Below are positions 8,757 to 63,744 of a DNA stretch of 64,000 nucleotides, piece by piece (position 1 is the first letter of the stretch; each line of letters starts with the position of its first letter). The stretch is from Morinoia aosen (lineage: Eukaryota > Arthropoda > Malacostraca > Amphipoda > Talitridae): contig CM059573.1 in the NCBI GenBank assembly GCA_030386875.1, positions 28,065,891-28,129,890 on the forward strand, read 5' to 3'. The notes beneath the pieces are model-generated. The model ran no database searches, was not told where the DNA came from, and saw nothing but the letters and a program-made list of their open reading frames with translations. The translations under genes were made by a program, and so were the position numbers.

Positions 8757-8762
8757 TCCCTC
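8757..8762. repeat. Polinton target-site duplication (left)
   Basis: TCCCTC immediately precedes the left terminal repeat and recurs exactly after the right terminal repeat at 22833-22838. A 6-bp duplication is the usual Polinton signature. Confidence 0.93.
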
Positions 8763-9056
8763 AGTAGTAAGGGGAAAGAGCTTGCCAGCCCAATTTAGGA
8801 TTTTTGGAGGATTTCAGCAATTAAAATACGACCTTGAAAAGCCACAAAGCCTCATCCATGATTTTTGGAGGGTTACAGCAATTAAAGAACGATCTTGTGA
8901 AGCCTCAAAAATCCATGATTTTACGAATTAACCTGAGGAGTAAGAAAAATATTCTTATTTTGCACAATTATTTCAATACTTAAAATTTTACGATCAAGAA
9001 AAAATGATTTGCTACTGAAATTTTTAAAGAAGTATATAATTTCAATAAAACGTTTA
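8763..9056. repeat. Polinton left terminal inverted repeat
   Basis: This matches the reverse complement of 22539-22832 over 294 bp with 8 mismatches by hand count (about 97% identity) and no length difference. It contains two ~60-bp subrepeats (TTTTGGAGG..CAGCAATTAAA..CGA.CTTG..AAGCC). The degenerate second Polinton at 60330 has only one such unit. The terminal AG is conserved among Polintons. Confidence 0.93.
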
Positions 9057-9266
9057 GGTATCCCCTCAAAATCTTCTCGTTTTCTTCACAACTATAGAAA
9101 ATTTATTAGAAGAAACTAATGTATACAAATATAGGATGGGAATCTTTCGCTGAATATTTAGGTCTAAAAGATTATCAAGGGTATAATGAGTGTATGCTTT
9201 TAAGCATGTCAAATAATCTTTAAAATATAGTTATGAATTCTTATCAAGTTTCACGTTTGTGCCGTA
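9057..9266. other. AT-rich subterminal spacer of the Polinton
   Basis: No open frame or recognisable motif was found between the left terminal repeat and the tandem array. Confidence 0.5.
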
Positions 9267-9575
9267 CATCATAACGCAATCTCCTTTCTGATTTTAAAAC
9301 ATGATGCAACCTTCTTAAATACTTTCCGGTTGTAAAACATGATGCAATCTTCTTAAATACTTTCCGGTTGTAAAACATGATGCAATCTTCTTAGATACTT
9401 TCCAGCTGTAAAACATGATGCAATCTCCTTTCTAATTGTGAAACATGATGCAATCTTCTTGAAAACTTTTCGATTGTAAAACAGGATGCAATCCCCTTTA
9501 AATACTTTCCGGTTGTACAACATGATGCAATCTTCCTAAATACTTTCCGGTTGCAAAACATGATGCAAGATTTAA
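9267..9575. repeat. Subterminal ~38-bp tandem array in the Polinton
   Basis: About eight direct units share the core CATGATGCAATCTTCTTAAA followed by TACTTTCCGGTTGTAAAA. Unit lengths vary from ~30 to 39 bp. The array sits just inside the left terminal repeat and upstream of the polymerase gene, with no counterpart at the right end. A role as replication enhancer, protein-binding cluster or promoter element is possible, but the sequence does not decide between them. Confidence 0.85.
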
Positions 9576-9716
9576 CACCCCCAATTGCTCGTCATGATGA
9601 AATTTTTGTGATAAGGAGCAAAAATTTCCGGGTTCACTTCAGATGCTTTCTCACCTGAGTACTTAAAGGAGGTGCTACTACTGAACTCACGCTTTTCAAA
9701 TTAGTTGAACTTTTAT

Positions 9717-9729
9717 TGTATTAAAAATG
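9717..9729 (+). promoter_or_regulatory. Start-abutting A-rich box of the polymerase gene
   Basis: TGTATTAAAAATG: the T/A-rich box runs directly into the proposed ATG at 9727, as for most other genes of the element. Confidence 0.55.
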
Positions 9730-10771
9730 GTATATGATAAATCATCAGATGTATATAGATTATATAACAATGAAAAAACACGACAACATAAAAACTCGAA
9801 AATACACACAAAGAAAGTATTGACTTCATTTGATCCTGAAAAAAATGAAATACCCTCAGATAAGAATCTTATAAAATGAACAAGCCATTCAATGTATTCT
9901 GTAACATCTGTAATGTATCTATTAAAAACTTTAACAAACATGAGAAGACACTGACACATGTGAAAAACATTAATAATATTTTAATATCTAATAAATTCTT
10001 CACTCTACATAAAAACTCGAAAATACACACAAAGAAAGTATTGACTTCATCTGATCCTGAAAAAAATAAAATACCCTCAGATAAGAATCTTATAAAAATG
10101 AATAAACCATTCAATGTATTCTGTAATATCTGCAATGTATCTATTAAAAACTTTAACAAACATGAGAAGACACTGACACATATGAAAACACTAATAATAT
10201 GTTAAAATCTAATAAATTCTTCACTCTACGTAAAAATAAGGTGAAAAAATATTGTGACATATGTAAAAAACACCTGACAAATATCTATAGTCATAGAAAA
10301 TCATTGAAACATTTCCGGAATGTGTATGGATGTAAATTTAGAAAAGTTACTAGAGCAATAAATGGAATGAGCTCACAGTATGATTACGGAGATATTTCAA
10401 TCAAGGATTATGAGGTATTTCTCAGAAACTTCACACCTGAAATTGAAAAAGTAATAAAAAATCAAGCATTTGACAATCTCAAGTTACAGCTTAATTTAAA
10501 AGTGCAATTTTATAAATTAAAATTAGAAAATGAAAAGCTAAGCTGCCAAGCTTGGTTCAACTCTGGCAAATTTGTGACAGCATCAAAAGGATACATAGAA
10601 ATTGCAAATTTACACAAAGAGGTTGTTAATAAAATCGATGACTTCACAAGAAATTCATCTGGTTGGATAGTTGAACAATTATTAGAGTTCAGTTTGAAAA
10701 TCGTTGAATACAAACCGATTACAGGGTCAAGCTATATTGAATTACCTGAGAAGTTTCGAAATCCCAATTAA
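9727..10771 (+). pseudogene. N-terminal zinc-finger region of the Polinton DNA polymerase B gene, broken
   Basis: The ATG at 9727 follows the element's start box. The region encodes repeated C2H2/JAZ-like fingers (CNICNVSIKNFNKHEKTLTH, about 9900-9960 and 10120-10182; CDICKKHLTNIYSHRKSLKH, about 10255-10312). A Lys-rich spacer and a ~150-residue helical segment follow, ending in an LPEKF motif. The frame shifts near 9873-9877 and again near 10185-10190, and an in-frame TAA lies at 10769-10771. The same frame continues to the polymerase core, so this is most simply the amino-terminal part of one large PolB gene. Long Cys/His-bearing N-terminal extensions are common in Polinton polymerases. The fingers may bind the element's DNA ends. 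Confidence 0.7.
9791..10231 (+). repeat. 221-bp tandem duplication within the zinc-finger coding region
   Basis: Copy 1 (9791-10011) and copy 2 (10012-10231) are nearly identical. Each contains AAAACTCGAAAATACACAC, the finger coding segment and the AATAAATTCTTCACTCTAC tail. The duplication added one finger plus its linker. The two copies now differ by single-base indels that shift the frame. Confidence 0.85.
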
Positions 10772-11002
10772 AAATTAATAAATATACAAAATACCGACAA
10801 TGAATGCTTTAAATGGTGTATCGCGAGATATTTCTGTCTAGATGAAAAAAACGGCCATCGAATTTCTAAAAGACTAAAAGCTGAAGCCGGGAAACTCAAT
10901 TTTTCTGATATAAGGTTCCCCGTAGAACTAAAAAGTATAACCAAATTCGAAAAAAATAATAACATTTCCGTTAACGTTTATAGTTTTAATTAAAATAATG
11001 AA
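10772..11002 (+). pseudogene. PolB linker segment between two in-frame stops
   Basis: The polymerase frame stays open from 10772 to 10990 but is bounded by TAA at 10769-10771 and TAA at 10991-10993. It encodes the conserved pre-exonuclease region of Polinton PolB, including CFKWCIARYF and FPVELKSITKFEKNNNISV. This shows that the upstream zinc-finger region and the core belonged to one gene. Confidence 0.7.
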
Positions 11003-13681
11003 TTGTGTCCACTTAGAATATCAACATCAAAGAATAAAGATGTGGTATCATTACTATTCATTAGAGATACAAACACGACTCACTATGTTCTCATGAAATC
11101 ATTGAGTCCTTTTTGTAAAACCAGTAACCATTACACAAAACATGTATGTCCGTATTGTTTATCAGTTTTTAGAAGATCAGATATTCTAGATAAACATAAA
11201 GACGATTGCTCAGTTCACACTCCAACAAAGTATGTGCTTGAAGGAGGTAAATTGAAATTTAAACATTACCAAAAAACAATTAGACATCCCTTCGCAATTT
11301 ATGCTGACTTCGAATCAACATTGACAAAAATAGATACGTGTCAACCAAATCAAAACTCAAGTTACACCATGAACATTCAGAAGCACAATCCTAATTCATT
11401 CTGTTGCTATACAAAATGTGAAGCAGATGAATATTCCCGTTTAGAAACACATAATGGTGAAGATGCTTCCCAAAAGTTTGTAGAATATTTAGAAAAAGAG
11501 GCCAAGAGAATTTATAGTCTGTTGAAAATGAATAAGAAAATGTATTTACCATCAGATAAATTCGAAAAATATAAAGAAGCCACAAGATGTTATGTATGTG
11601 GCGGAGAATTTACGGAAGATAATTATAAAGTTAGAGACCACAATCATTTGACAGGTCATTATAGAGGTCCAGCTCATTTAAAATGTAATTTAAAAATTAG
11701 GAATCCTAATTTTATACCTGTGTTTCTGCACAATCTGTCTAATTACGATGCTCATTTGTTCGTGAAAGACTTGGGAAATATATCCGGAAAGCTGAACGTT
11801 ATTCCACAAACAGATGAAGAATATATTAGTTTTACACAAACCATAAAAGTAGATTCCTATGTATGTAAATATACAGGAAAAATTAAAGATATCACCAGAG
11901 ACTTACGGTTCTTAGACAGCTACAGGTTTTTACCTTCATCTCTAGATAAACTTTCGAAGAATTTATCTGAGCACAAAGAATTGTCGAAGTTCTTTTCCAA
12001 TGAACAACAATTAGAGTTGATCAACAAAAAAGGTATTTATCCGTATGAATATGTAAATAGTTATGAAAAAATGAACGTTAATAGTTTACCAGCTAAAAGT
12101 GAATTCTACAGTAGATTAAATAATAAAAATATTTCAGAAGATGAATATCAGCATGCACTCAAAGTGTGGAGAGCTTTTAATTGTACAACATTCAAAGATT
12201 ACCATAATTTATATCTAAAAGTCGATACATTATTACTAGCCGAAGTATTTGAACAATTTAGACTAACATGCATGAAAACTTATTCTCTAGATCCAGCACA
12301 TTATTTTACAGCTCCAGGATTGTCTTTCGATGCTCTACTGAAACATACAAAAATAGAATTGGACTTGTTTGAAGATCCTGATATGCTACTATTCATCGAA
12401 AAAGGAATAAGAGGTGGGATTTCTACAATATCAACACGATATGCAAAAGCGAACAATCCATATATTCCAGAAACATTCGATAAAGGAAAACCAAATAGTT
12501 TTATCACATATATTGATGCAAATAATCTTTACGGCTGGGCTATGTGTCGATCATTACCTACTGGTAACTTTAAATGGAAAGATCCAAAGTCAAAACTCAA
12601 AGCAGATAAAGGTTATATATTAGAAGTGGATTTAAGTTATCCAAAAGACATACATGCTCCACATAATGATTTACCATTAGCTCCAGAAAATATTAAAGTA
12701 AACGATGTAAATAAATTAGTTCCACATCTTGGAAAACGAGAAAAATATGTTGTACATCTTAAATCTCTAACACAATATCTAGATCTAGGATTGAAGTTAG
12801 AGAAAATTCATAGAATATTAGAGTTTGATGAAAGTCCATGGATGAAATCATTTATTGATATCAACACAAAAATGCGTCAGCAAGCTAAATCTGAATTTAA
12901 AAAAGACTTCTACAAGCTGATGAACAATTCAGTATTTGGTAAAACAATGAAAAATATTAGAAATAGAGTAGATGTGTGTTTAGTAAAGTCAGAGAAAGAA
13001 TTAATGAAATTAGCAAACAAACCAAACTTTACCAGTTTTAAAATATTCTCAGAAAATTTGATAGCATGTCATATGCAAAAACAAAGACTGAAATTTGATA
13101 AACCAATCTACGTAGGGTTTTCTGTATTAGATATAAGTAAAACATTAATGTATGATTTCCATTATAATCATATTAAAAAGAAATATGGTAATAAGGCAAA
13201 GTTGTTGTTTACAGACACAGATTCATTATGTTATGATATCGAAACAAAAGATTTGTACAAAGATATGGAAAGAAATAAAGACTTGTATGATACATCAAAC
13301 TATTCTAAAGAACACTTCCTATATTCAACTAAAAATATGAAAGTGATTGGGAAAATGAAAGACGAAACGTGTGGAATACCAATTGAAGAATTCGTCGGTC
13401 TCAGAGCAAAACTATATTGTTATAAGACGAAAAATTCCGTGAGTAAGAAAACAAAAGGTGTAAGTAAGAACATAACTGAGCACAATATCACAATGGATGA
13501 ATATAAAAGAGCATTGAATAATGAAACAATATACAAAACGATGTATAATATCCAAAGTGTTAACCACGAATTATATACTAAAGAAATAAATAAGGTTGCA
13601 TTAAATGGTAATGATGACAAGCGACATATATTACCAGATGGTATCAACACACTAGCATTAAATCACTATAAAATATATTAA
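11003..13681 (+). CDS. polB: Protein-primed family B DNA polymerase core (PolB)
   Basis: The 892-codon open core replicates the element's linear DNA by protein priming. Visible motifs in order: a Cys/His cluster (residues ~49-69), exonuclease I YADFEST (~100-106), an inserted HNH-like block with CYVC..DHNHLTGHYRG..C (~193-232), exonuclease II SNYDAHLF (~246), exonuclease III YLKVDTLLLAEVF (~403), polymerase A YIDANNLYGWAM (~502), polymerase B KLMNNSVFGKTM (~638) and polymerase C FTDTDSLCYD (~736). All catalytic aspartates are present. The codon at 11003 is TTG and merely follows an in-frame stop at 10991-10993. The true start is probably 9727, so this is the intact C-terminal part of a broken gene. 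It is the first gene of the element and precedes the PLA2-like gene by 18 bp. Confidence 0.93.
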   Translation: MCPLRISTSKNKDVVSLLFIRDTNTTHYVLMKSLSPFCKTSNHYTKHVCPYCLSVFRRSDILDKHKDDCSVHTPTKYVLEGGKLKFKHYQKTIRHPFAIYADFESTLTKIDTCQPNQNSSYTMNIQKHNPNSFCCYTKCEADEYSRLETHNGEDASQKFVEYLEKEAKRIYSLLKMNKKMYLPSDKFEKYKEATRCYVCGGEFTEDNYKVRDHNHLTGHYRGPAHLKCNLKIRNPNFIPVFLHNLSNYDAHLFVKDLGNISGKLNVIPQTDEEYISFTQTIKVDSYVCKYTGKIKDITRDLRFLDSYRFLPSSLDKLSKNLSEHKELSKFFSNEQQLELINKKGIYPYEYVNSYEKMNVNSLPAKSEFYSRLNNKNISEDEYQHALKVWRAFNCTTFKDYHNLYLKVDTLLLAEVFEQFRLTCMKTYSLDPAHYFTAPGLSFDALLKHTKIELDLFEDPDMLLFIEKGIRGGISTISTRYAKANNPYIPETFDKGKPNSFITYIDANNLYGWAMCRSLPTGNFKWKDPKSKLKADKGYILEVDLSYPKDIHAPHNDLPLAPENIKVNDVNKLVPHLGKREKYVVHLKSLTQYLDLGLKLEKIHRILEFDESPWMKSFIDINTKMRQQAKSEFKKDFYKLMNNSVFGKTMKNIRNRVDVCLVKSEKELMKLANKPNFTSFKIFSENLIACHMQKQRLKFDKPIYVGFSVLDISKTLMYDFHYNHIKKKYGNKAKLLFTDTDSLCYDIETKDLYKDMERNKDLYDTSNYSKEHFLYSTKNMKVIGKMKDETCGIPIEEFVGLRAKLYCYKTKNSVSKKTKGVSKNITEHNITMDEYKRALNNETIYKTMYNIQSVNHELYTKEINKVALNGNDDKRHILPDGINTLALNHYKIY

Positions 13682-13691
13682 TTATATAAAG

Positions 13692-13702
13692 TATAAAAAA
13701 TG
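13692..13702 (+). promoter_or_regulatory. Start-abutting box of the PLA2-like gene
   Basis: TATAAAAAATG merges with the ATG at 13700, only 18 bp after the polymerase stop. Confidence 0.6.
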
Positions 13703-14230
13703 ATTATCTACAACAATAATGATTTCTATAACCAAGATTTATTATCTGTTGAAAATGAACAGTATTTGAGTGATTTAAAATCAATAGTTAATGAAGAAAA
13801 AACTGGGAAGGGTATTGTAAATATATTGCTTAGAAAACTTCCATTACCTGAAATGCATTTGAAATTACCATCTAATATTCAATCTGAACAAGTCCCGAAC
13901 GGTTCATTCAACAATAAACATACCTACTCATTTTGCGGTCCAGGAACTAAGGTGCAGAAGCGAATTCAAGAAGGTTATCGAGGAGTTAACTCACTCGATC
14001 AGGCTTGTAAGAATCATGACATATTTTATTCAAAACATCCGACAACGAAAGACAGAAATTATGCTGATGATATTCTAGCAAAAAGAACCGCTAAAATTGC
14101 AACTATTCCAAATGAATCAGAATACGTTCGACAAGATGCTAAATTAGTTAACGCAATTATGGCAGGTAAGAGTTGGGCAGGAATGGGCCTCTCGTCGACA
14201 AAAAACTATCAAACACGCTCACTGATGTGA
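13700..14230 (+). CDS. Phospholipase A2-like virion protein
   Basis: This 176-residue protein has a parvovirus/sPLA2-like core: a calcium-loop-like FCGPGTKVQ (~residues 77-85), then SLDQACKNHDIFYSKHP with the catalytic His-Asp pair and Tyr (~98-115), and a downstream ADDIL containing the second acidic residue (~123). PLA2 domains in small DNA viruses help virions breach endosomal membranes, and related proteins occur in Polintons/adintoviruses. The N-terminal ~70 residues are of unknown role. The 3' end (GMGL..) overlaps the integrase frame by 58 bp, so the two may be overlapping genes or one gene split by an indel. The start is fixed by the box TATAAAAAATG. Confidence 0.82.
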   Translation: MIIYNNNDFYNQDLLSVENEQYLSDLKSIVNEEKTGKGIVNILLRKLPLPEMHLKLPSNIQSEQVPNGSFNNKHTYSFCGPGTKVQKRIQEGYRGVNSLDQACKNHDIFYSKHPTTKDRNYADDILAKRTAKIATIPNESEYVRQDAKLVNAIMAGKSWAGMGLSSTKNYQTRSLM

Positions 14231-15252
14231 GCGATAAAATCTTGAATGACTTATATTATAATCCAAAGACTGGTTATACTGGAATGAATCAACTTGTTAA
14301 AAAATCCGGCTTATCTTCAACTCTCGTACAAAATTGGTTAGAAACTCAAAAAACTCACACTCTACATAAACCAATAAAACATAATTTCAAAACGAGAAGG
14401 GTGAAGGTATCAAAAATTGATGATCAATGGCAAGCTGATTTGGTTGACACGCAAAACTATAAAGATCAAGGAAAAAACTACATATTAACAGTAATTGACA
14501 TTTTCAGTAAATATGCATGGGCGATTCCAATAAGTAAGAAGACAGGTGAAGAAATCAAAACTTCTTTTCAAAAACTATTTAAAATACGAATTCCTTCTAA
14601 AGTTCAAACAGATACAGGATTAGAGTTTACAAATAAATCCACTCAAGAACTATTCAAGAAACATAAAATTCAGTGGTTTAGTTCAGAAAATGAAACCAAA
14701 GCTCAAGTTGTGGAACGCTTCAACAGGACGTTAAAAACTAAAATGTGGAAATATTTTACACACATGAAAACTAAAAAATGGGCGAATGTTTTACAAGATT
14801 TAATGCAAAATTACAATAATAGCTATCATAGAACAATAAAAATGACACCTAACCAAGCATCATTGGAAAAGAACAGTAAAAAGGTTTATGATAACTTATT
14901 CCCTCCAACCGAACCAACTTTCACATCACCGAAACTTAAAATTGGGGATAGAGTAAGAATAAGCAAGAAACGGAAAGACTTTCGGAAGGGTTATTTGCCA
15001 AATTTCACTAATGAGTTATTCATTGTATCCGAAATACTGTCTACTGAACCAATTACTTATAGATTAAAAGATATGGATGGCGAAAAAATAAAAGGAAGTT
15101 TTTATGAACAAGAACTATCAAAATATACTAGTGATGTTTATGCAATTGAGAAAATTCTCAAGAAGAGTAAAGGAAAACTTTTGGTCAAGTGGAAAGGTTA
15201 TGATGAACCTTCATGGATCTCAGCAACTGAACTTAATGTCAGTTCAGAGTGA
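14173..15252 (+). CDS. int: Retroviral-type (RVE) integrase with C-terminal chromodomain
   Basis: The 359-codon frame encodes the enzyme expected to insert the element and make the 6-bp duplication. The N-terminus (NDLYYNPKTGYTGMNQL) matches the Polinton-type helical head. The DDE core is visible as QADLVDTQNY (~residue 88), QTDTGLEFTN (~146) and AQVVERFNRTLKTKMW (~178-192), giving D, D and E. An SH3-like DNA-binding segment (KIGDRVRISKKRKDF) follows. A chromodomain lies at ~323-352 (YAIEKILKKSKGKLLVKWKGYDEPSWI), likely guiding insertion to histone-marked chromatin. It has no start box, and its first ATG lies inside the PLA2 frame. The true start could be further upstream by fusion or downstream by internal initiation. 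Confidence 0.93.
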   Translation: MGRNGPLVDKKLSNTLTDVSDKILNDLYYNPKTGYTGMNQLVKKSGLSSTLVQNWLETQKTHTLHKPIKHNFKTRRVKVSKIDDQWQADLVDTQNYKDQGKNYILTVIDIFSKYAWAIPISKKTGEEIKTSFQKLFKIRIPSKVQTDTGLEFTNKSTQELFKKHKIQWFSSENETKAQVVERFNRTLKTKMWKYFTHMKTKKWANVLQDLMQNYNNSYHRTIKMTPNQASLEKNSKKVYDNLFPPTEPTFTSPKLKIGDRVRISKKRKDFRKGYLPNFTNELFIVSEILSTEPITYRLKDMDGEKIKGSFYEQELSKYTSDVYAIEKILKKSKGKLLVKWKGYDEPSWISATELNVSSE

Positions 15253-15287
15253 ACTTATATTAAGTTAAAGTCTTTTTGAATTTTTCT

Positions 15288-15299
15288 CTTTAAAAAATG
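15288..15299 (+). promoter_or_regulatory. Start-abutting box, gene of unknown function
   Basis: CTTTAAAAAATG ends with the ATG at 15297 and is preceded by a T-rich tract. Confidence 0.65.
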
Positions 15300-16244
15300 G
15301 CGTTGATTGATATCAAAACTAAATCAGATTTACTAAACTTAGCAAAGAGTTTGAAAAAGCAATTCACAAATGATAGAATAATCGAACAAGATTTATACCA
15401 TGATGTTAAAAAAGTTTACAAACCATTGATTGAACCTTTATCTAAAATTGTTGACGAAACTAAACAAACTAGGTTGGCAATAAAATATATACCTCATGAA
15501 AAACTTGAATCTATCCAAGGAAAACCTGTTGAGAAACTAGCTTTGCCATCTTCTGAATCCAACACTGTAGTTGGGCCTATCGCATTGGATTTCTTGCGTT
15601 TTGCATGGAAACATGGAAATGAGCATGACAAAGCTTATGGCATTCGTTGGGATGGAAGTAAAGTTATGCTAGGAAATAAAAAGGTAGATATTTTGGGTAA
15701 TGATTTGAAAGTTGGAGATAGAATATACGAAGGCACAACTGGATTATGGGAATTATTAACAAAGCAAAATCCTATTGACTTTAGGGACGAAGATAAAAAT
15801 AATTATTATGATATGTTGTATTCAACTGATGCATATTTGAAGGAAGACGGTACCATAAAAGCAAATAGGGGTGAGAAATATTCTAAATTTATCAAACCCT
15901 TCTATCGAATAGTTCAACGAAAGAAAGCTCAAGATGCAGTTGAAACAATTAGATCAGCAAGTCCATCAAGTCGTGAATCAAGTCGTGAATCAAGCCCTGA
16001 ACCAAGTCCTTTCAGCTCAAGAGTAGTAGAATCCTCAATTTTTAGTCGACACAAAATTCCTTCAACAAGTCAGAGACCAATTTTCGACCCGTCACTAAGG
16101 TCTACTTTTAGACCAACTCCTACTCCTATACCTTCTCCTACATCTTCTCCTATACCTCCTCGTCATCCTCACAGAGAGGATTCAGACGTTTCAGGATCAG
16201 GTATTATTGTATTACCATCTAACATCAATGATCTTGTAAAATGA
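15297..16244 (+). CDS. Conserved Polinton protein of unknown function (DUF8207-like)
   Basis: This 315-residue protein has an N-terminal helical region, then a conserved block DKAYGIRWDGSKVMLGN..GDRIYEGTTGLWELLTKQNP (residues ~103-162), then NYYDMLYSTDAYL, and a Ser/Pro-rich low-complexity tail from ~215. The central block resembles a domain common in invertebrate Polintons that I associate with DUF8207; I cannot search to confirm this. The TGA at 16242-16244 is followed in the same frame by 53 open codons (to TAA 16404-16406) encoding QLLFGSFTAGNTGVFNELQ, which looks like the family's C-terminal module. The annotated end is therefore probably a premature stop. Capsid association is plausible from position only. 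Confidence 0.75.
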   Translation: MALIDIKTKSDLLNLAKSLKKQFTNDRIIEQDLYHDVKKVYKPLIEPLSKIVDETKQTRLAIKYIPHEKLESIQGKPVEKLALPSSESNTVVGPIALDFLRFAWKHGNEHDKAYGIRWDGSKVMLGNKKVDILGNDLKVGDRIYEGTTGLWELLTKQNPIDFRDEDKNNYYDMLYSTDAYLKEDGTIKANRGEKYSKFIKPFYRIVQRKKAQDAVETIRSASPSSRESSRESSPEPSPFSSRVVESSIFSRHKIPSTSQRPIFDPSLRSTFRPTPTPIPSPTSSPIPPRHPHREDSDVSGSGIIVLPSNINDLVK

Positions 16245-16406
16245 CACCAGTTATTGTTCGGTTCGTTTACCGCTGGAAATACAGGAGTTTTTAATGAACT
16301 GCAAATACTTACGCATGAACTTTTAAAGCAAGGTCTATTAAATACTGCTGAAGTAAAGGTGTTTGATGATTTATTGTTTAAAAAATGGAATCTCAAAGCA
16401 TTGTAA
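16245..16406 (+). pseudogene. Detached C-terminal module of the preceding gene
   Basis: The frame of the upstream protein stays open after the TGA, encodes LLFGSFTAGNTG and an amphipathic helix, and ends at TAA 16404-16406. That is 22 bp inside the next gene, whose start box lies within this module. The continuous frame and family-like sequence indicate an in-frame stop in this copy rather than a genuine separate gene. Confidence 0.6.
16377..16387 (+). promoter_or_regulatory. Start-abutting box of the minor capsid gene
   Basis: TTTAAAAAATG ends with the ATG at 16385 and is embedded in the 3' coding end of the preceding gene. Confidence 0.65.
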
Positions 16407-17083
16407 TTAGTGAAAGAAAAAGTGACATAAGTGTAAACTTTAGTCCAGCAATAGAATTGAACAAAAATAAATTTCACGAAATGGCACTGGTTGGGTTAGA
16501 CATGTATCATTCTATTCCTAACATTGATGAAAATAATAATAAATTTCATTATGAATTAAATGGTGTTGAAAATGTAATTACACTTCCAACAGGATGTTAT
16601 GAAATAGAAAGTATAAACGAATTCATTCAAAAAACATTGGCAGGCTTTATTGAAATCAAAGCAAATACTAATACTTTGAAATGCGTCATAGTTCTCCATT
16701 CATCTACGTTAAAAGTATTTTTCAATAAAGAAAAATCTTCAAATACAATGTTAGGATTTGGAGAAATTATCTTAGAAGGTGTTGGAGAACATGAAAGTAT
16801 AAATATAGTGAACATAATGTCTGTTAACACAATACTCGTTCATTGTAGCGCAATTAACGGCTCATACCTCAACGGTTCTTTGCATAATATTTTATGTTCC
16901 TTTTTCCCAAACGTCCCACCAGGATATAAAATTGTAGAAAATCCAAATAAACCAATTTATCTACCGATATATCAACCTTTACTCTATGATTTGAGAATTT
17001 GGCTTACTGATCAAAATGGACATGCTCTGAATACTAGAGGTGAAGAAGTAACTGTTCGATTACACCTAAGGTCTAGAAATTAA
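16385..17083 (+). CDS. Minor capsid (penton-like) protein
   Basis: This 232-residue open frame precedes the major capsid gene by 28 bp. It has the Polinton minor-capsid pattern: an N-terminal beta-rich segment, KFHYELNG..NVITLPTGCYEIESINEFIQKTL (residues ~58-85), a C-terminal VPPGYKIVENPNKPIYLPI, and a closing RIWLTDQNGHALNTRGEEVTVRLHL typical of single jelly-roll pentons. Its role is pentamers at capsid vertices. The size is close to the family norm and no lesion is seen. Confidence 0.85.
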   Translation: MESQSIVISERKSDISVNFSPAIELNKNKFHEMALVGLDMYHSIPNIDENNNKFHYELNGVENVITLPTGCYEIESINEFIQKTLAGFIEIKANTNTLKCVIVLHSSTLKVFFNKEKSSNTMLGFGEIILEGVGEHESINIVNIMSVNTILVHCSAINGSYLNGSLHNILCSFFPNVPPGYKIVENPNKPIYLPIYQPLLYDLRIWLTDQNGHALNTRGEEVTVRLHLRSRN

Positions 17084-17103
17084 GATAACTTGATAAAATT
17101 ATC

Positions 17104-17114
17104 TTTAAAAAATG
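17104..17114 (+). promoter_or_regulatory. Start-abutting box of the major capsid gene
   Basis: TTTAAAAAATG ends with the ATG at 17112; identical in core to the boxes of the neighbouring genes. Confidence 0.65.
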
Positions 17115-18379
17115 GATTCTTTAAGATGGAATGAAAACATTAAAGTTGATGAATCAATTGAAAAATTGAAACGCATAACTATGAACCACAAATAGGTACT
17201 GATCTGAATCGTGAACATAACGATATCAAGATCATTATCCAGAATCAAGATCAGTTTGTATTACCTAGTAAAAGTTTTATATATATAGAAGGAGCTTTGA
17301 ATAAAAAAGATGGAAGTGATTATAATTTTAAAGATGAAAAAATAACAATAATCAACAATGGGTTAATGCATTTGTTTGATAGAGTTTCTTACAGAATTGG
17401 AGATGAAGAAATTGAAGGTTATAGTTACCCTGGAATTACAACAACTCTAAAAGGATTAGTTAGCTATCCCCGAAATGTTAAAGAAAACATGATATTTTTC
17501 TGGAGCGTCGATACTAAGAAGAATGAAAAATCAAACGAAGGATTTAGCGATCGAAATGACTACTTAAGTTCAGCTAATGGGAAATTCAGCGCTGCTATCC
17601 CACTTGAACATTTGTTTGGATTTTGTGAAAATTATAAGAAGGTAATTTATGGAGTGAAACATGCTCTGACTTTAAGAAGAGGTGATAATTCTAATGCTAT
17701 ATTCAAATCAGATGAGAAAGATGCAAACCAGCAAGATAAAGTAGTTGATGGTAAAATTTCTATTACAAAATTAATTTGGAAAATGCCAGCTTACAAACTG
17801 TCTGATGAGTGTAAAATAAAGCTATATCGTCAAATTAAGGATAAAATAACATTACCTATTCCTTATTTGAATAGACAATTGGAACAAACCATTGTAAACT
17901 CTCAACAGAAATTCTTAGATTGGACTTTAACTCCAAATTCAGGAACTCAAAGACCTCGATATATAATTTTAGCGTTCTAAACTAAGAAAGCTAATTCACA
18001 AGCTGTAAACAATGCAATTTTCGATCATTGTAACTTGACGAATGCATATGTTCAGCTGAATAATGAACGATACCCTGATCACAATTTACAGATTGATTTC
18101 GATTCTAACAATTATGCTACAGCTTATAAGATGTTAATAGATTATGTACCTAGTGAAAATTGTGCTATCGAATACAGACACTTTAAATATTTGTATCCCA
18201 TCTATGTGTTTGATATCAGCAGACAAAATCAACGTATCAAGGAAACTACAATTGATATTAAAATTAAAGCAGAATTTAAAACCAATATTCCTGATGATAC
18301 ACATGCATATGCACTGATTCTATCTGACAGAGTGATTCGATTGCAATCTGACGGTGATAAAATGAGTTTAAACTACTAA
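17112..18379 (+). pseudogene. Major capsid protein (double jelly-roll), broken copy
   Basis: About 420 codons from the ATG at 17112 to the TAA at 18377-18379. The N-terminus (MDSLRWNENIKVDESIEKL) is in one frame. A frame change near 17165-17175 leads into the long open stretch with NDIKIIIQNQDQFVLPSKSF, LFDRVSYRIGDEEIEGYSYPG and KISITKLIWKMPAYKLSDE. An in-frame TAA at 17978-17980 precedes the second-half sequence DHCNLTNAYVQLNNERYP. These are hallmarks of Polinton/adintovirus hexon-like proteins that form the icosahedral shell. The gene is otherwise colinear, so only two lesions are apparent. Open sub-frames are 17297-17980 and 18035-18379. Confidence 0.88.
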
Positions 18380-18406
18380 AAATTAGAATATATTCACATA
18401 ATAATG

Positions 18407-18417
18407 TTTAAAAAATG
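18407..18417 (+). promoter_or_regulatory. Start-abutting box of the CxxC/core-type gene
   Basis: TTTAAAAAATG ends with the ATG at 18415. Confidence 0.65.
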
Positions 18418-18803
18418 TATTGTGTAAAGTGTAAGAAGAAAACTGATACTGATAATCCTCAATATTTAATTACAAAGAACAATAAGATACTGGTCAAAGG
18501 TATGTGTATTATTTGTAAAAAGACAAAGACTTCTTTTGTTTCTAAAGATACTGCGACGAAAGGGGGTTTTACATTTACAATTCCAGCTTTATTAGCTGGC
18601 CTTGGGGCTGCTGGCTCTTTGGCTGGAGGTGCTGCTGCAATAGCATCCGCAGTTAATAAGAAAAAAGCTGACGATAAACTCTTGTCAGAAACTAAAAGGC
18701 AAAATGAAGCAATGGAAAGTAAAAAAGGTTCAGGTATACGGATAACTCCGAGAAAAAAAAACCTTGTGGAATGGGTCTCTACTTGAAACCACCAAAGAAG
18801 TAA
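18415..18803 (+). pseudogene. Zinc-ribbon/hydrophobic core-type (PX-like) protein, C-terminus frameshifted
   Basis: This small protein has an N-terminal zinc-ribbon-like head (Cys3, Cys6, Cys31, Cys34; DUF5679-like), then a Gly/Ala-rich hydrophobic segment FTIPALLAGLGAAGSLAGG (~residues 55-75), then a basic segment. The frame open from 18415 ends at 18786. A second frame, entered at the A8 run around 18752-18760, encodes MGLYLKPPKK and stops at 18801-18803. That Gly-Leu-Tyr-Leu-Lys-Pro-Pro ending is what I expect for this Polinton family, so the A run appears to carry an indel. By analogy with adenovirus core peptides it may bind DNA or membrane inside the virion; this is inference. Confidence 0.72.
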
Positions 18804-19210
18804 TACCTAACCAACCATTATCTAAACATGATTTGGAATACTACATAAATATATTGAAAATTCCGAATTTTCGAGGTATTTACATGAGAGATACTTTACC
18901 TAAACACCCTCTAGAAACGGAATGCGGAATCCTAAACTTAGACACTGAAAAAGGATTAGGAACGCATTGGACTTGTTGGTATAAGAAAGATAACATATGT
19001 TATTACTTTGACAGTTATGGTTTGATTTATCCAATTGAATTTAAAGACTACTCAACAGATTGTGTTGATATAATTTTCCCTACTTACAAAATCCAGAAAA
19101 TAGGTGATGTAATTCGTATACATTTATGTCTAGAAATGCTGAAGCGTTTAGAAAATGAAAGCTTTCATGCAATTCTTTTAGATCTGTATAAAACCCCAAC
19201 TAGTTTTTAG
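18764..19210 (+). pseudogene. Adenain-like cysteine protease, probably inactive
   Basis: The protein resembles the adenovirus/Polinton maturation protease: KIPNFRGIYMRDTLP (~residues 29-45), catalytic His in GTHWTCWYKK (~68), catalytic Asp in YYFDSYGL (~83), and the final helix IHLCLEMLKRL. At the position where the family has its nucleophilic Cys, followed by Gly, this copy has Arg at codon 19115-19117 and then Ile. Activity is therefore not expected. No ATG occurs upstream of the conserved N-terminus; the nominal first codon is TTG, so the start codon may also be lost. The 5' end overlaps the CxxC gene. Role in the family: cleaving capsid precursors. Confidence 0.82.
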
Positions 19211-19237
19211 AAAATAAACTACAGATAACTTTTTTTC

Positions 19238-19248
19238 TTTAAAAAATG
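19238..19248 (+). promoter_or_regulatory. Start-abutting box of the 440-residue coiled-coil gene
   Basis: TTTAAAAAATG ends with the ATG at 19246, after a run of T. Confidence 0.65.
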
Positions 19249-20568
19249 TCTTGTGGAAATATTTATGCAGCAAAGTTGGTCTTTTTACCTTCCTGTAAAG
19301 AAAATCATGAGCATGAAAATAGTGAAAATAATTCTGAAGGACTTTTGCAGAATGTAGAGCAAATAAAAAGTTTACTTGAAGATTCTAATATAGAGTCATT
19401 GAAAGACACAATTGAAGCTCTCAAAAATGAAAGAACTGAATTGGAATCAATTATAAACGAGTATGATGAGAAATCTGTAACTCTGAAAACAGATTTACAA
19501 GTGAAATTTTCTGATGTAGACTCAATCGTTAAATTCTTAGAGACGTTAATTTATGATTTATCTGAAAAGTTCGGTGCTCTTGAACCAAAAATTGTTTCAA
19601 ATGATGAACGACTATCAAGCATAGACTCAACATTGATGAAGAAAATTGATAAAATTGATGCTAAATTTGAAAACATTGATTCAAACATAACCAACCTAAC
19701 AGACGTAAAAATTCCAGAGATTGGGGACAAATTGAAGAGTCTAGAGTCAGGTATTGAAACTAGAATCGATGAAAAGCTGTTAGTTAAAGAGTCGTCATTA
19801 ACAGATCAGATTAAAGGAGTTGAAGCTAAATTTGAGCTTGTGGACTCTAAGATAACCAATTTGATTGATGTTAAAATTCCTGAGATTCAAGAGAATTTCA
19901 AGAATCAAGAGTCAGTTATAGAAAATCAAATGGATGAAAAACTGAAGACTTTAGAAACTAAAATTAATGATCAAATTGGTTCAAAGAATGAATTAGTAAA
20001 TAATAAAGTTGAAGAACAAGAAATTAGGATAATTAACGTCGTGAATGAAAAAGAAATGAGCTTGCAGACATCACTTAATGATCAAATTGAAGAAAAGCTG
20101 AAGAGTTTAGAATCAACACTGAACAATACTGTTGAAGAAAAAAGTAAAAGCTTAGAGGCACAACTAACTGATTTAAGTGATAGAAACCTTTTTGTTATGG
20201 AAAGAACAGTAGCCTTAGCACCCTCGTTTGTTGAAGTTGACAATAAGCTGAAAAATTTAGAGTCAACCATAACCTCATCCAGCGAAGAAAAATTCTATGA
20301 TCTTAACAAAATTATAATGGAATTACGTGCAGAGTCAGTCCCATTAAGAAAAATAGAAGAACTAGCTAAGAACTTGAGTGATGTAGAAAGTCTTTTCCAG
20401 GAGTTTTCAAGAGACATTATTTCAAATCAGAATGAAATCAGTCAGTTCAAATTAATGCTTCAGAATGAAACTGATAAAAATGTAAAATTAAACCAGGAAG
20501 TGGAAAGTTTGAGTGACCGAGTAAACAATTTGATATCTATGAGAGTTAGAGAAAATTTAGAGAATTGA
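19246..20568 (+). CDS. Long coiled-coil (fibre/spike-like) protein
   Basis: This 440-residue intact frame is almost entirely heptad-type helix after a short head with two Cys (MSCGNIYAAKLVFLPSC). Internal repeats recur every ~30-60 residues, for example ITNLTDVKIPEI (~149) and ITNLIDVKIPEI (~206), and several EEKLKSLES-like segments. There is no signal peptide or transmembrane segment. Position between the capsid/protease block and the ATPase, and a head similar in style to the next gene, suggest a trimeric fibre or tail-like surface protein. No enzymatic motif is present. It starts at a clear box and ends 18 bp before the next ATG. Confidence 0.75.
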   Translation: MSCGNIYAAKLVFLPSCKENHEHENSENNSEGLLQNVEQIKSLLEDSNIESLKDTIEALKNERTELESIINEYDEKSVTLKTDLQVKFSDVDSIVKFLETLIYDLSEKFGALEPKIVSNDERLSSIDSTLMKKIDKIDAKFENIDSNITNLTDVKIPEIGDKLKSLESGIETRIDEKLLVKESSLTDQIKGVEAKFELVDSKITNLIDVKIPEIQENFKNQESVIENQMDEKLKTLETKINDQIGSKNELVNNKVEEQEIRIINVVNEKEMSLQTSLNDQIEEKLKSLESTLNNTVEEKSKSLEAQLTDLSDRNLFVMERTVALAPSFVEVDNKLKNLESTITSSSEEKFYDLNKIIMELRAESVPLRKIEELAKNLSDVESLFQEFSRDIISNQNEISQFKLMLQNETDKNVKLNQEVESLSDRVNNLISMRVRENLEN

Positions 20569-20578
20569 AAATTCTATG

Positions 20579-20589
20579 TATAAAAAATG
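20579..20589 (+). promoter_or_regulatory. Start-abutting box of the collagen-motif fibre gene
   Basis: TATAAAAAATG ends with the ATG at 20587, 18 bp after the upstream stop. Confidence 0.65.
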
Positions 20590-21294
20590 ATAGGCGGAAA
20601 TATTTTTGGACAACAAGGAAAAAAATCATTTTTATCTTCACAACCAGGACCTCCTGGAATAGGTTTTAAATATCTTGATGAAGATCAAAATTTCGATTTA
20701 AATAATAGAAGACTTGCAAATATTTCTTTTCCAATCGAAGAATTTGACGCTACGAACAAAAAATATGTTGACGAAGTTTTGGAAAATTTGAGGCTTCATC
20801 TCAGAAAATATATAGGGGTAAGAGAAAATCTTATCAATGAAAATTATCAGTTCAGAAGTGATTCTATCCAAGCATCTATAGATGAAAATACTACAGGTTT
20901 TCAAGAAAAACTCAGTGAAATTATGACAAATCTCGATGAACATAGTAGAATATCTGACGAAAAAATAGAGGTGATTCGAACAGGTACTTTAGAACATACA
21001 GACTTTTTGAAAAATGAGATAAAGAGGTTGGAAGAAGAGGAAATAAAAAGTGTGAAATTAGACTATGCAAATCTCGAGAGAGTATTCAACGATATGAGTT
21101 CATACATTGAAACTTTTAGAAATAATCTTCATGAACAGGATAGAGAAACAATCATAAATACAAATGAAATAGAAAAATTGAAACAGTCATCGCAGAAATT
21201 GGAGGATGACAGTGCTGATATTAAAAACAGATTAATATCGTTAGAGAATACTTTGAGACGAGAAACCGTTGAACTAAAAAAACATGTTTTTTAA
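20587..21294 (+). CDS. Fibre-like protein with short collagen motif and coiled coil
   Basis: This 235-residue intact frame has a head (MIGGNIFGQQGKKSFLSS) followed by PGPPGIG. It then has DEDQNFDLNNRRLANISFP and EEFDATNKKYVDEVLENL, a pattern seen at attachment domains of phage and Polinton fibres that precedes the shaft. From ~residue 65 it is coiled coil to the end. Remnants of the same gene occur in the second Polinton (61945-62130, minus). Likely a trimeric virion fibre; receptor specificity cannot be inferred. Confidence 0.75.
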   Translation: MIGGNIFGQQGKKSFLSSQPGPPGIGFKYLDEDQNFDLNNRRLANISFPIEEFDATNKKYVDEVLENLRLHLRKYIGVRENLINENYQFRSDSIQASIDENTTGFQEKLSEIMTNLDEHSRISDEKIEVIRTGTLEHTDFLKNEIKRLEEEEIKSVKLDYANLERVFNDMSSYIETFRNNLHEQDRETIINTNEIEKLKQSSQKLEDDSADIKNRLISLENTLRRETVELKKHVF

Positions 21295-21337
21295 TAGATG
21301 AACTTAATAAAAAAGAAAAACACATTGAAGAATTAAA

Positions 21338-21349
21338 CTTAATAAAATG
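21338..21349 (+). promoter_or_regulatory. Start-abutting box of the small coiled-coil gene
   Basis: CTTAATAAAATG ends with the ATG at 21347. The homologous gene in the second Polinton has TATATAAAATG at the same place. Confidence 0.5.
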
Positions 21350-21601
21350 GAAGATATTTTTACAGACATTCAAAGAGAAGTTGTTCGCAATACTGCAAAC
21401 ATAAATCAATTGCAATTAGATGTTAATCAAATTCAAAATGATGTCGAATTAAATAGGGAAGTTACAACTCAATTAGAGTCAAATATCATTCATCTTGAAA
21501 CATTAATCAGTAACGATTCTTATGACACCAAAGGTAGCTTTTTCTCTCGTAATTGCCCAACGAGACAACCAATAAGAAAGAAAAATACATTGAAGAATTG
21601 A
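21347..21601 (+). CDS. Small coiled-coil protein
   Basis: This 84-residue frame begins MEDIFTDIQREVVRNTANIN and forms a short coiled coil to ~residue 57, after which the sequence looks unrelated. A homologue beginning MEDCITSVQRDVV lies in the degenerate second Polinton (61491-61655, minus, 54 residues) at the same place between fibre and ATPase. Conservation of start, box and location in two copies argues it is a real gene. The longer C-terminus here may reflect a shifted frame. Function unknown. Confidence 0.6.
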   Translation: MEDIFTDIQREVVRNTANINQLQLDVNQIQNDVELNREVTTQLESNIIHLETLISNDSYDTKGSFFSRNCPTRQPIRKKNTLKN

Positions 21602-21691
21602 ACTTAATGAAGTAGCGAATTTAAAAAAAACAATGTTTACAATTGCTACAAACAGAAAATAAATATTGTAAAATGAGTTGTAGTTTATTAG

Positions 21692-21703
21692 TTATATAAA
21701 ATG
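21692..21703 (+). promoter_or_regulatory. Start-abutting box of the ATPase gene
   Basis: GTTATATAAAATG ends with the ATG at 21701. Confidence 0.55.
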
Positions 21704-22480
21704 ATGTATATGTGGAAAGACAGTAAAAGAAATAATCAAAAGAATCATTTTATTTTTCCTTCACCTTCTTTACGGTGTGTAATAGTCGGTAGATCGAATT
21801 GTGGTAAAACCTGTTTATTGATCAGACTTCTTCTTGAGGAATATATCGATTTTACCAACCTGTTTCTTTATAGTAAATCGACAAAACAAGCAGAATATAA
21901 ACTACTTAAAAATGCTTTTTCAAAAGGTTATAAACAGTCTGAAATAATTGAGCTTTTTAAAACCGGAAGTGGAAATATTGATACATTTCTCGAAGGCTTA
22001 GCTGTAAAACGCAGCGCAAAGGTAATCGTTAAATATTTTGAAGATATCACTTCTATTCCTGATCCTAGTGAAGTGGATGCTAAGAAAAAAAATTTGTTTA
22101 TATTCGATGACATCGCAACTGAAAAGAATCAGACACCAGCTGATAATTTTTACACCCGAGGGAGGCAGAATAATTGCAGCTTGATTTACTTGACTCAAAA
22201 TTGTTATTTATTACCTCGTCAGTCGATACGGACGAATGCAAACCTATTGATTCTATTTGAATTACCAACTAACGATTTAAGAAATATTCATATGGACATT
22301 GTCTCAGGAGACATGTCCTTAGAAGAATTTATTGAATTTTGCAGTGATACTTTCAAAATTCCTTTTAGCTACATAATGATAAACAAAGACGTTCACCCAT
22401 TAAAGGAAAAATTCTGTAGAAATTTGAACCAAGTTTATATTCCGAAAAAGTATTTTGAAGACTTTGTACCTAGAATTTGA
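21701..22480 (+). CDS. FtsK/HerA-type genome-packaging ATPase
   Basis: The 259-residue intact frame is expected to drive DNA into the capsid. The Walker A loop CVIVGRSNCGKTCLL is at residues ~26-40 and Walker B with adjacent acid NLFIFDDI at ~130-137. Sensor-like YLTQNCYLLPRQSIRTNANL (~167-186) follows, the A32/FtsK-HerA arrangement of Polintons and large DNA viruses. It is the last gene before the right terminal repeat. A broken inverted homologue is at 60630-61375. Confidence 0.92.
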   Translation: MMYMWKDSKRNNQKNHFIFPSPSLRCVIVGRSNCGKTCLLIRLLLEEYIDFTNLFLYSKSTKQAEYKLLKNAFSKGYKQSEIIELFKTGSGNIDTFLEGLAVKRSAKVIVKYFEDITSIPDPSEVDAKKKNLFIFDDIATEKNQTPADNFYTRGRQNNCSLIYLTQNCYLLPRQSIRTNANLLILFELPTNDLRNIHMDIVSGDMSLEEFIEFCSDTFKIPFSYIMINKDVHPLKEKFCRNLNQVYIPKKYFEDFVPRI

Positions 22481-22538
22481 AACACCAGCCTATACACACA
22501 CAGGGATTCAAGTATTGTAAATAGTTTATTACATATTT

Positions 22539-22832
22539 TAAACGTTTTATTGAAATTATACACTTCTTTAAAAATTTCAGTAGCAAATCATTTTTTCTTG
22601 ATCGTAACATTTTAAGTATTGAAATAATTGCGCAAAATAAGAATATTTTTTTTACTCTTCAGGTTAATTCGTAAAATCATGGATTTTTGAGGCTTCACAA
22701 GATCGTTCTTTAATTGCTGCAACCCTCCAAAAATCATGGATGAGGCTTTGTGGCTTTTCAAGGTCGTTCTTTAATTGCTGAAATCCTCCAAAAATCCTAA
22801 ATTGGGCTGGCAAGCTCTTTCCCCTTACTACT
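22539..22832. repeat. Polinton right terminal inverted repeat
   Basis: Reverse complement of the left repeat, ending ..CCTTACTACT. It begins 58 bp after the ATPase stop. The flanking bases 22833-22838 repeat the left TCCCTC. Confidence 0.93.
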
Positions 22833-22838
22833 TCCCTC
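22833..22838. repeat. Polinton target-site duplication (right)
   Basis: TCCCTC, identical to 8757-8762. Confidence 0.93.
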
Positions 22839-61490: not shown

Positions 61491-61655
61491 TTAATAGTTG
61501 TGATCGTAATTGATAATAGTGATTCTAAATTCATTTAAATCATACATCAGGTTATTAATAAGTTCTCGATTATGCACATTATCAATGAGCAGCTGGTTTA
61601 TGTTTTCTGAGTCAATAACAACATCTCGTTGAACACTTGTAATACAGTCTTCCAT
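61491..61655 (-). CDS. Small coiled-coil protein of Polinton copy 2
   Basis: 54 codons beginning MEDCITSVQRDVV, preceded by TATATAAAATG. Homologous at its N-terminus to the gene at 21347. It remains open although its neighbours are broken, perhaps because it is short. Function unknown. Confidence 0.5.
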   Translation of the reverse strand: MEDCITSVQRDVVIDSENINQLLIDNVHNRELINNLMYDLNEFRITIINYDHNY

Positions 61656-61739
61656 TTTATATAACATATTTTTCTAAGATCACTTTATAAATGGTTGTCT
61701 AAGTGGATGATATCTGGAAAATTGACCGTTTTACAAAGG

Positions 61740-61904: not shown

Positions 61905-61944
61905 TTTTAATTTTTTTTTTAAGTTTTGCTTTTATAAAACCATG

Positions 61945-62146: not shown

Positions 62147-62427
62147 TAATAGAAATTTAAAAGCGAAGAAAATGCTAATAAAACTAGTCATATTTACTCA
62201 AATTGAGAAAAAACAAAATCGAAAACGTTTCAGAGTCTAGCTCCATCTTCAGTTCTGTAAAATACAAAGAATTCAAAAAAGTGCAAAAAATACAAACATT
62301 TCGACGAATACAAGCAATACAAAAAAGTAAAACGAGCACAATTGTAACAACAAAAATATAAATAAATGTCAAACTATGCCTAAAAACTAGCAAAAAAGTA
62401 ACGAAAAAAGTAACGAAGAAATACACA

Positions 62428-62990
62428 TTATGAATTTACAATTTGAAGGGGATAGGAACTGAGCATATTATTTAGGGAAGGTTTTCCTTTAAAAATATGA
62501 AGGGATTCTAAAATTCGTCGGTCAAACTCATTGGGAGCGCTAGCAATGACTTTAAAATCTTCCTCACGAACTACTATATTGCACTGTTCAGCATGGCTGT
62601 GTACGGCTGAATGAGGAGGATGTGCAAGTAAGTTCCCGGTACGGTGGCTCCTACCGCTGTGTTCTGCTATTCTTGTGTAAATACTGCGTGACGTCATCCC
62701 GACGTACGCCGATGCGCACTGCACACAACTATATTTATAAATGACACAAGAACGCATTAGACCAGGGATGGATTCCTTGTGCCGCAAAAAAGAACCTATT
62801 TTTGCCTTATTAATCAAAATTACACGCAGGTTGATAGTAGGAAAATACCAATTAAAAAGAGACTTTAATTCACGGGCCAGTTTCTCAGATGGGGAACCAA
62901 AATAGGGTGTAGAGTGCAGTAATGAAAACTATCGGTTCTGACATTTATGTTCGACTGAGAATATTTTCCAGATAAAACCTTTTTAATTTG
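62428..62990 (-). pseudogene. Penelope GIY-YIG endonuclease, left arm
   Basis: The open frame 62817-62428 carries the linked Cys motif and GIY-YIG-type core SCVIYKYSCVQCASAYVGMT, SRSIYTRIAEH, and a downstream HAEQC with acidic residues; RT thumb sequence precedes it. Truncated at the palindrome centre. The endonuclease nicks DNA for target-primed reverse transcription. Confidence 0.75.
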
Positions 62991-63073
62991 GGAGTTTACG
63001 ATTCCTGTAGGAAAACCATTATTATAGAAGAAATCTCGTAAAAAATCAAATTCTGCATGTATATCATTGAACG

Positions 63074-63744
63074 ATGATTTACATGCATGTTTTTTTACGA
63101 GATTTCTTCTATAATAATAGTTTTCCTACAGGAATTGTAAACTCCCAAATTAAAAAGTTTTTATCTGGAAAATATTCTCAGTCGAACATAGATGTCAGAT
63201 CCGATAGTTTTCATTATTGCACTCTACCCTATTTTGGTACCCCATCTGAGAAACTGCCCCGTGAGTTAAAGTCTCTTTTTGATAGGTATTTGCCTACTAT
63301 CAACCTGCGTGTAATTTTGATTAATAAGGACAAAAATAGGTTCTTTTTTTGCGGCACAAGGAATCCATCCCTGGTCTAATGCGTTCTTGTGTCATTTATA
63401 AATATAGTTGTGTGCAGTGCACATCGGCGTACATCGGGATGACGTCACGCAGTATTTACACAAGAATAGCAGAACACCGCGGTAGGAGCCACCGTACCGG
63501 GAACTTACTTGCACATCCTCCTCATTCAGCCGTACGCAGCCATGCTGTACAGTGCAATATAGTAATTCGTGAGGAAGATTTTAAAGTCATTGATAGCGCT
63601 CCCAATGAGCTTGACCTACGAATTTTAGAATCTCTTCATATTTTTAAAGGAAAACCTTCCCTAAATAATATGCTTAGTTCCTATCCCCTTCAAATAGTAA
63701 ATTCACAGTGCGTATTTTTTCGTTACTTTTTTGCTAGTTTTTAG
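63074..63744 (+). pseudogene. Penelope RT end and GIY-YIG endonuclease, right arm
   Basis: 63074-63379 encodes RDFFYNNSFPTGIVNSQIKK and LPYFGTPSEKLPRELKSLFD, the RT thumb and linker. 63349-63744 encodes SCVIYKYSCVQCTSAYIGMT and SRSIYTRIAEH. The two parts lie in different frames overlapping at ~63350-63380, so an indel separates them. Confidence 0.75.

Follow-up and report, generated by a model that had tools for sequence, protein, structure and literature searches.

A short A-rich box abuts the ATG of ten genes of a complete Polinton in the genome of Morinoia aosen, and is confirmed as a real and unusual signal that is locked to the start codon. Based on its statistics and conservation, combined with comparisons to already described systems, we propose with moderate confidence that the box serves as the initiator in a core promoter of virus type, with one such promoter at each of the ten gene starts. 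Transcription would start within the A-run leading into the ATG, yielding mRNAs that are leaderless, or A-headed if the polymerase slips on the A-run, and start selection may be assisted by a weaker upstream part (AAA at -30, TTGA at -22 and T at -13). The polymerase could be host Pol II or that of a helper virus, while the integrase, and probably the protease, would be made from the mRNA of the upstream gene by frameshifting.

The Polinton and the boxes at its gene starts

The analysed stretch of 64 kb (hereafter the window) holds the following features.

8763..22832, plus strand: complete Polinton, with TIRs at 8763-9056 and 22539-22832 and ends AGTAGTAAGG / CCTTACTACT
9719..9726, plus strand: box TATTAAAA, start of the broken PolB gene (ATG 9727)
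13692..13699, plus strand: box TATAAAAA, PLA2-like gene 13700-14230
14200..14233, plus strand: predicted -1 frameshift signal, consisting of A_AAA_AAC (14200-14206), a 9-nt spacer and a 7-bp hairpin (14216-14233)
15289..15296, plus strand: box TTTAAAAA, unnamed gene starting at 15297
16377..16384, plus strand: box TTTAAAAA, gene 16385-17083, which we take by resemblance to be the minor capsid gene
17104..17111, plus strand: box TTTAAAAA, major capsid (double jelly roll) gene, broken in the window
18407..18414, plus strand: box TTTAAAAA, DUF5679 gene 18415-18786
19238..19245, plus strand: box TTTAAAAA, coiled-coil-like gene 19246-20568
20579..20586, plus strand: box TATAAAAA, gene 20587-21294
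21339..21346, plus strand: box variant TTAATAAA, small gene 21347-21601
21693..21700, plus strand: box variant TATATAAA, packaging ATPase gene 21701-22480
61656..61663, minus strand: box variant TATATAAA, before ATG 61655 in a decayed second Polinton fragment
61905..61912, minus strand: box variant AATTAAAA, before ATG 61904 in the same decayed fragment

The element has the hallmarks of a Polinton/Maverick, i.e. TIRs (294 nt each, 97% identity), a 6-bp TSD (TCCCTC at 8757-8762 and 22833-22838), PolB, an rve integrase, a packaging ATPase and a double-jelly-roll (DJR) capsid; it also carries genes for the PLA2-like protein and DUF5679. The domain scan matched rve, the Pox_A32-like ATPase and DJR, and the PolB label is based on homologues and conserved motifs, with no Pfam polymerase match. 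The product of the 16385 gene has 294 homologues; that of the ORF at 18884, presumably the protease by resemblance, had no Pfam match in the scan. The window copy is worn, with the PolB and capsid ORFs interrupted, and owing to the break in the capsid gene no more than 27 codons remain in the ORF at 17112. Other copies with longer ORFs are found in the same genome (1.99 Gb in 29 contigs), which has at least 147 matches each for the ATPase and the minor capsid protein. The 15297 ORF has 315 codons in the window versus 366-370 in four such copies (L034-L036 and L044), and in L034-L036 the minor-capsid box falls within the end of the preceding ORF. These three copies represent a second arrangement, in which the ATPase and the small gene are inverted relative to PolB; divergence lies in the ATPase (74%) and the PolB 5' end, the capsid-side genes being near-identical, and the arrangement looks recombinant.

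Towards its 5' end (9786-10188), the broken PolB gene contains tandem repeats (95-98%) of a roughly 222-bp unit that presumably codes for a zinc-finger-like stretch. A large inverted repeat (62404-63732, 388-nt arms, 96%) adjoins the second Polinton fragment. The window also contains a Pao-type peptidase as well as LINE- and gypsy-like reverse transcriptase domains; Bel-Pao is a marker of animals. Searches of the same genome for a divergent Polinton family (P0064, P0138, P0319 and a PolB motif) gave, among the best candidates scored, only the window family or no match, and C15:7465079, considered as a different Polinton, was rejected as it belongs to the family of the window element.

Statistics and conservation of the box

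The pattern T[TA]TAAAAAATG occurs seven times on the plus strand of the window and never on the minus strand, and all seven occurrences sit at gene starts (13700, 15297, 16385, 17112, 18415, 19246 and 20587). The preliminary description had placed a box at ten ATGs, which holds when the variants TATTAAAAATG at 9727, TTAATAAAATG at 21347 and TATATAAAATG at 21701 are included. Its extension to the second Polinton stands in part, as variants (TATATAAA and AATTAAAA) precede the ATGs at 61655 and 61904, none of them an exact box.

T[AT]TAAAAA precedes seven of the ten starts versus none of the 311 other plus-strand ATGs of the element (323 in total, less the ten starts as well as 14284 and 18884, which have no box), and T plus three to six A precedes all ten versus 11 of the 311. 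In dinucleotide shuffles of the element (n=300), full patterns occur 0.20 times on average and at most twice. These counts bear out the earlier claim that the box exceeds an AT-rich background. Scored by a leave-one-out 14-nt matrix, the ten starts occupy ranks 5 to 16 of the 542 ATGs on both strands; with 24 nt and all 28,094 sites, nine of them take ranks 5 to 15 and the ATPase start has rank 397. Genome-wide, TTTAAAAAATG is found 15,716 times versus 13,681 for its reversed control (15% more), so that about 0.1 would be expected by chance in 14 kb, where five are found; among the 100 places listed, several are spaced like Polinton genes.

All ten starts carry TAAAA, with AAA at -3 to -1, and the specified box columns are -9 (G/C), -8 and -6 (both T). 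The sequence beyond the box differs between genes. We give hardly any credence to the boxes being chance products of AT-rich DNA, to which the 31% G+C of the element would be conducive, or copies of one ancestral leader: the control ATGs and shuffles speak against this, as do the differing flanks and two PolB starts that share little else.

Further upstream, T is found at -13 and at -22 in nine of the ten starts each (column p=5e-5 for both), and at -31 in eight. TTGA lies at exactly -22 in five starts, a number matched by 0 of 1000 shuffles and 0 of 1000 sets of other ATGs, and AAA occupies -30 to -28 in six, as matched by 0.4% of shuffles and 0.1% of other-ATG sets. The family-wise P of these fixed-position tests, run after a test with 6-nt tolerance had come out marginal (P 0.03-0.064 for TTGA), is at most 0.004. 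TGA occurs at -21 in 6 of 11 starts, and at 20587 it terminates the gene before. The upstream motif columns display no extra conservation across 44 loci (72/1872 versus 194/4558 sites, p=0.49). An upstream half consisting of AAA at -30, TTGA at -22 and T at -13 accompanying the box is suggestive.

The box is more conserved than its surroundings, as supported by 44 non-overlapping loci of the same genome (L004, L005 and L007 being left out as overlapping). Positions -9 to -1 differ from the window copy at 38 of 1872 sites versus 194 of 4558 at the other positions from -40 to -10 (p=6e-6), and the box is also below the first 49 codons (870/29927; p=0.026), p-values that are optimistic since the compared copies are related. 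The result is the same for 47 loci including overlaps (38/1953 versus 197/4756). The counts over 44 loci leave out 92 alignments that do not reach across the start and retain a few cross-matches between genes (e.g. L033 for DUF5679). The PolB start, for which there are 0 copies in the counts, was compared between the window and L034, where the proteins are 95% identical over 862 residues and 32% identical in a stretch near the N-terminus. The DNA before the two genes gives no collinear blastn match, yet both starts have TATTAAAA|ATG, as well as TGA at -21 and T at -13. The shared 15 bp at -8 to +7 (E 0.22) are alone not significant; when a matrix is built on the window starts other than PolB (nine), the start of PolB in L034 comes 20th of 19,960 sites.

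Integrase and protease starts

As previously noted, the integrase and protease ATGs (14284 and 18884) lack the box. The integrase ORF extends from 14284 to 15252 in a frame that is open from 14170 and lies -1 relative to the PLA2-like ORF. In the window this frame has no ATG before 14284, which itself is located inside a stretch conserved in homologues. Of 16 copies, 12 have a readable overlap, and in each of these the PLA2 ORF contains a zero-frame A_AAA_AAC and the integrase lies at -1 (L002, a chance match, L039 and L049, where the overlap was not found, and L068 were set aside). Ten of the 12 have no earlier integrase-frame ATG; L034 and L035 have one, box-less. The 7-bp hairpin follows the slippery site by 9 nt in 13 of the 14 copies listed, with one stem base changed in L038, and by 7 nt in L068, where the integrase is in frame 0 and the PLA2 ORF stops early. 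The predicted fold has -12.2 kcal/mol (z -4.3), and none of 200 shuffles is as stable. We note that the overlap codes in two frames, and is consequently under a further constraint. Among relatives, PLA2 and integrase form one protein in P0259 and L054, and the integrase is separate in P0241, P0245 and P0246. Most simply, the integrase of the window family would be a -1 frameshift product.

The ATG ORF of the protease (18884-19210) overlaps the end of the DUF5679 gene in another frame, behind an A-run. In the window its conserved part is not preceded by an ATG. The same is seen in three of four readable copies, the fourth, L050, having one; early ATGs in the protease frame of L042 and L050 are without a box. 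At the overlap (18740-18800 in the window), an A-run of 8-11 is present in all ten copies listed, with varying length and frame. The protease is likely made as a fusion by frameshift or slippage, less clearly so than the integrase. As frameshift products of an upstream mRNA, the integrase and probably the protease would need no box of their own.

Promoter reading, rivals and known systems

Several observations favor an initiator. The box separates the gene starts from all other ATGs of the element and is conserved across loci, with the PolB starts sharing it without aligned flanks. Columns -22, -13, -9, -8 and -6 are specified beyond the AAA of a translation context, and TTGA and AAA are enriched at fixed positions. 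The box-less integrase comes with a frameshift-like signal, and the features mirror vaccinia late promoters in the T at -13 and yeast linear plasmids in TAAAN and short leaders. Counted against it are the upstream columns, which are not conserved and in which TTGA becomes marginal with 6-nt tolerance, the absence of an exact TAAAT, the box-less early ATGs of the integrase in L034/L035 and of the protease in L042/L050, and the lack of enrichment in five related loci (L001, L053, L055, L058 and L061).

The main rival, which we regard as possible though unlikely, is a translation signal, i.e. an extreme A-rich start context that would aid ribosomes on the ORFs of longer or polycistronic mRNAs, with promoters located elsewhere. 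The invariant AAA at -3 to -1 is in agreement with this, as are an in-frame TAA at -6 to -4 in seven of ten starts (TAA AAA ATG) and the tight packing of the genes, which overlap in other copies. However, T at -8 and -6, G/C at -9 and the columns out to -30 are not features of a start context, and a host histone H4 gene has CTCCATCGACATC before its ATG; this is a single control, one gene out of 162 pattern matches, with no other genes recognised in the 4.8 kb around it. Alternatively, host Pol II could use a promoter whose TATA is degenerate (TAAA near -31) and sets the start at the ATG, the box being only the initiator region. The T at -31, the AAA at -30 to -28 and the transcription of Sf Mavericks in cells without detected virus, as stated in passages of PMC5803895, would fit, but TATAWA near -31 is found at 13700 only (at -33), the sole TCAKT lies at -58 of 15297 and the upstream columns are conserved no more than their neighbors, rendering this arrangement improbable. 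A leader of about zero length is moreover unusual for animal mRNA. The preliminary description had considered a TATA-like late promoter; for a usual TATA box the position is wrong.

A poly(A) signal of the preceding gene was rejected, as A[AT]TAAA lies within 150 nt of 6 of 11 stops (that of the 15297 gene taken from other copies) versus 47% of random positions, and as such a signal gives no reason for a lock to the ATG. A splice acceptor was likewise rejected (2/10 versus 13%). The absence of either excess favors the initiator as well. TTTTTNT after stops (4/11 versus 13%) amounts to too few cases to use.

The initiator would resemble those of poxvirus late promoters and pGKL plasmids in its working, without being one of them. 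In vaccinia late promoters, TAAAT is placed at the start codon and preceded by a T ten bases upstream (-13; PMC11980589), and PMC3061580 gives an entomopoxvirus example. The Polinton box shares the A-run fused to the ATG, the T at -13 and the location at capsid-type genes, whereas an exact TAAAT is found at none of the ten starts, where T is followed by at least four A before TG. The poxvirus likeness suggested earlier extends to the ATG lock and the -13 T, and not to the exact motif. In addition, the Polinton sits in host chromosomes, and no RNA polymerase domain was recognised in the ten Polinton proteins scanned, three of which had no match at all (20587, 21347, the PolB 5' fragments and the rest of the capsid ORF lay outside the scan). 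In pGKL, as described in sections of PMC6831550 and PMC6211774, a UCS (ATNTGA) is combined with a TAAAN initiator, transcription starts at an A usually 17-22 nt after the UCS, and the short leaders carry non-templated 5' poly(A), longer A-stretches being associated with less capping. The Polinton is alike in its TAAAA, which conforms to TAAAN, its closeness to the ATG, the TGA at -21 and one signal per gene, and differs in that no full ATNTGA occurs in the 40 nt before any of the ten starts and in that the plasmids supply an RNA polymerase of their own.

Mavirus and endogenous mavirus-like elements, as outlined in parts of PMC8547959, share the late motif TCTA with the giant virus CroV. Like the Polinton, mavirus integrates, encodes a capsid and has a motif in front of its genes; in the Polinton, unlike mavirus, TCTA lies within 40 nt of only two of the ten starts (17112 and 20587), and the host is an animal. 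The Sf Mavericks of Spodoptera comprise the same kinds of genes, including a PLA2-domain protein, with a CAP and an ATPase that are similar to entomopoxvirus proteins (PMC5803895); the word promoter is absent from the main text of that paper. Their reported transcription in cells where the authors found no virus argues for host Pol II and indicates that some transcription can proceed without a helper; the resemblance of CAP and ATPase argues for poxvirus contact. There is a slim chance that this is an animal Polinton with poxvirus-like late promoters for a polymerase that it lacks itself, and that its capsid genes are switched on by a co-infecting cytoplasmic DNA virus. If so, animal Polintons would be virophage-like, as mavirus is to CroV.

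IMG/VR scans using the ATPase, PolB, minor capsid and integrase, and a genome-contig scan using the minor capsid, found no relative. The PolB alignment includes two distant IMG/VR loci and 15 contigs filed under bacterial/archaeal MAGs, presumably as contaminants; six of the 15 were box-tested, two being enriched and four not. Across the eight loci tested, some with one or two usable genes, T plus three to eight A at the ATG is enriched in L054 (4/6 genes, p=1.4e-4) and L051 (4/7, p=1.9e-4), weakly so in L002 (3/10, p=0.01), and not in L001 (1/11), L053 (0/1), L055 (0/2), L058 (0/5) and L061 (0/2). L051, with a Bro-N gene, and L054, with an Adeno_PX gene starting with TTTCTAAAAAATG, are Polinton- or adintovirus-like contigs under bacterial MAGs. 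That these two also have T plus an A-run favors the initiator, and indicates that a start-abutting AT box is wider than the window family, its exact letters not.

The open-licence PMC literature, as far as the searched parts extend, yielded no description of animal Polinton promoters. A start box present gene by gene predicts transcript starts, key bases and a reader, host Pol II or a visiting virus. Box and frameshift signal jointly point to a compact rule, namely one box per independent start and frameshifting for the rest, and the box could show how virus-like elements switch on their capsid genes.
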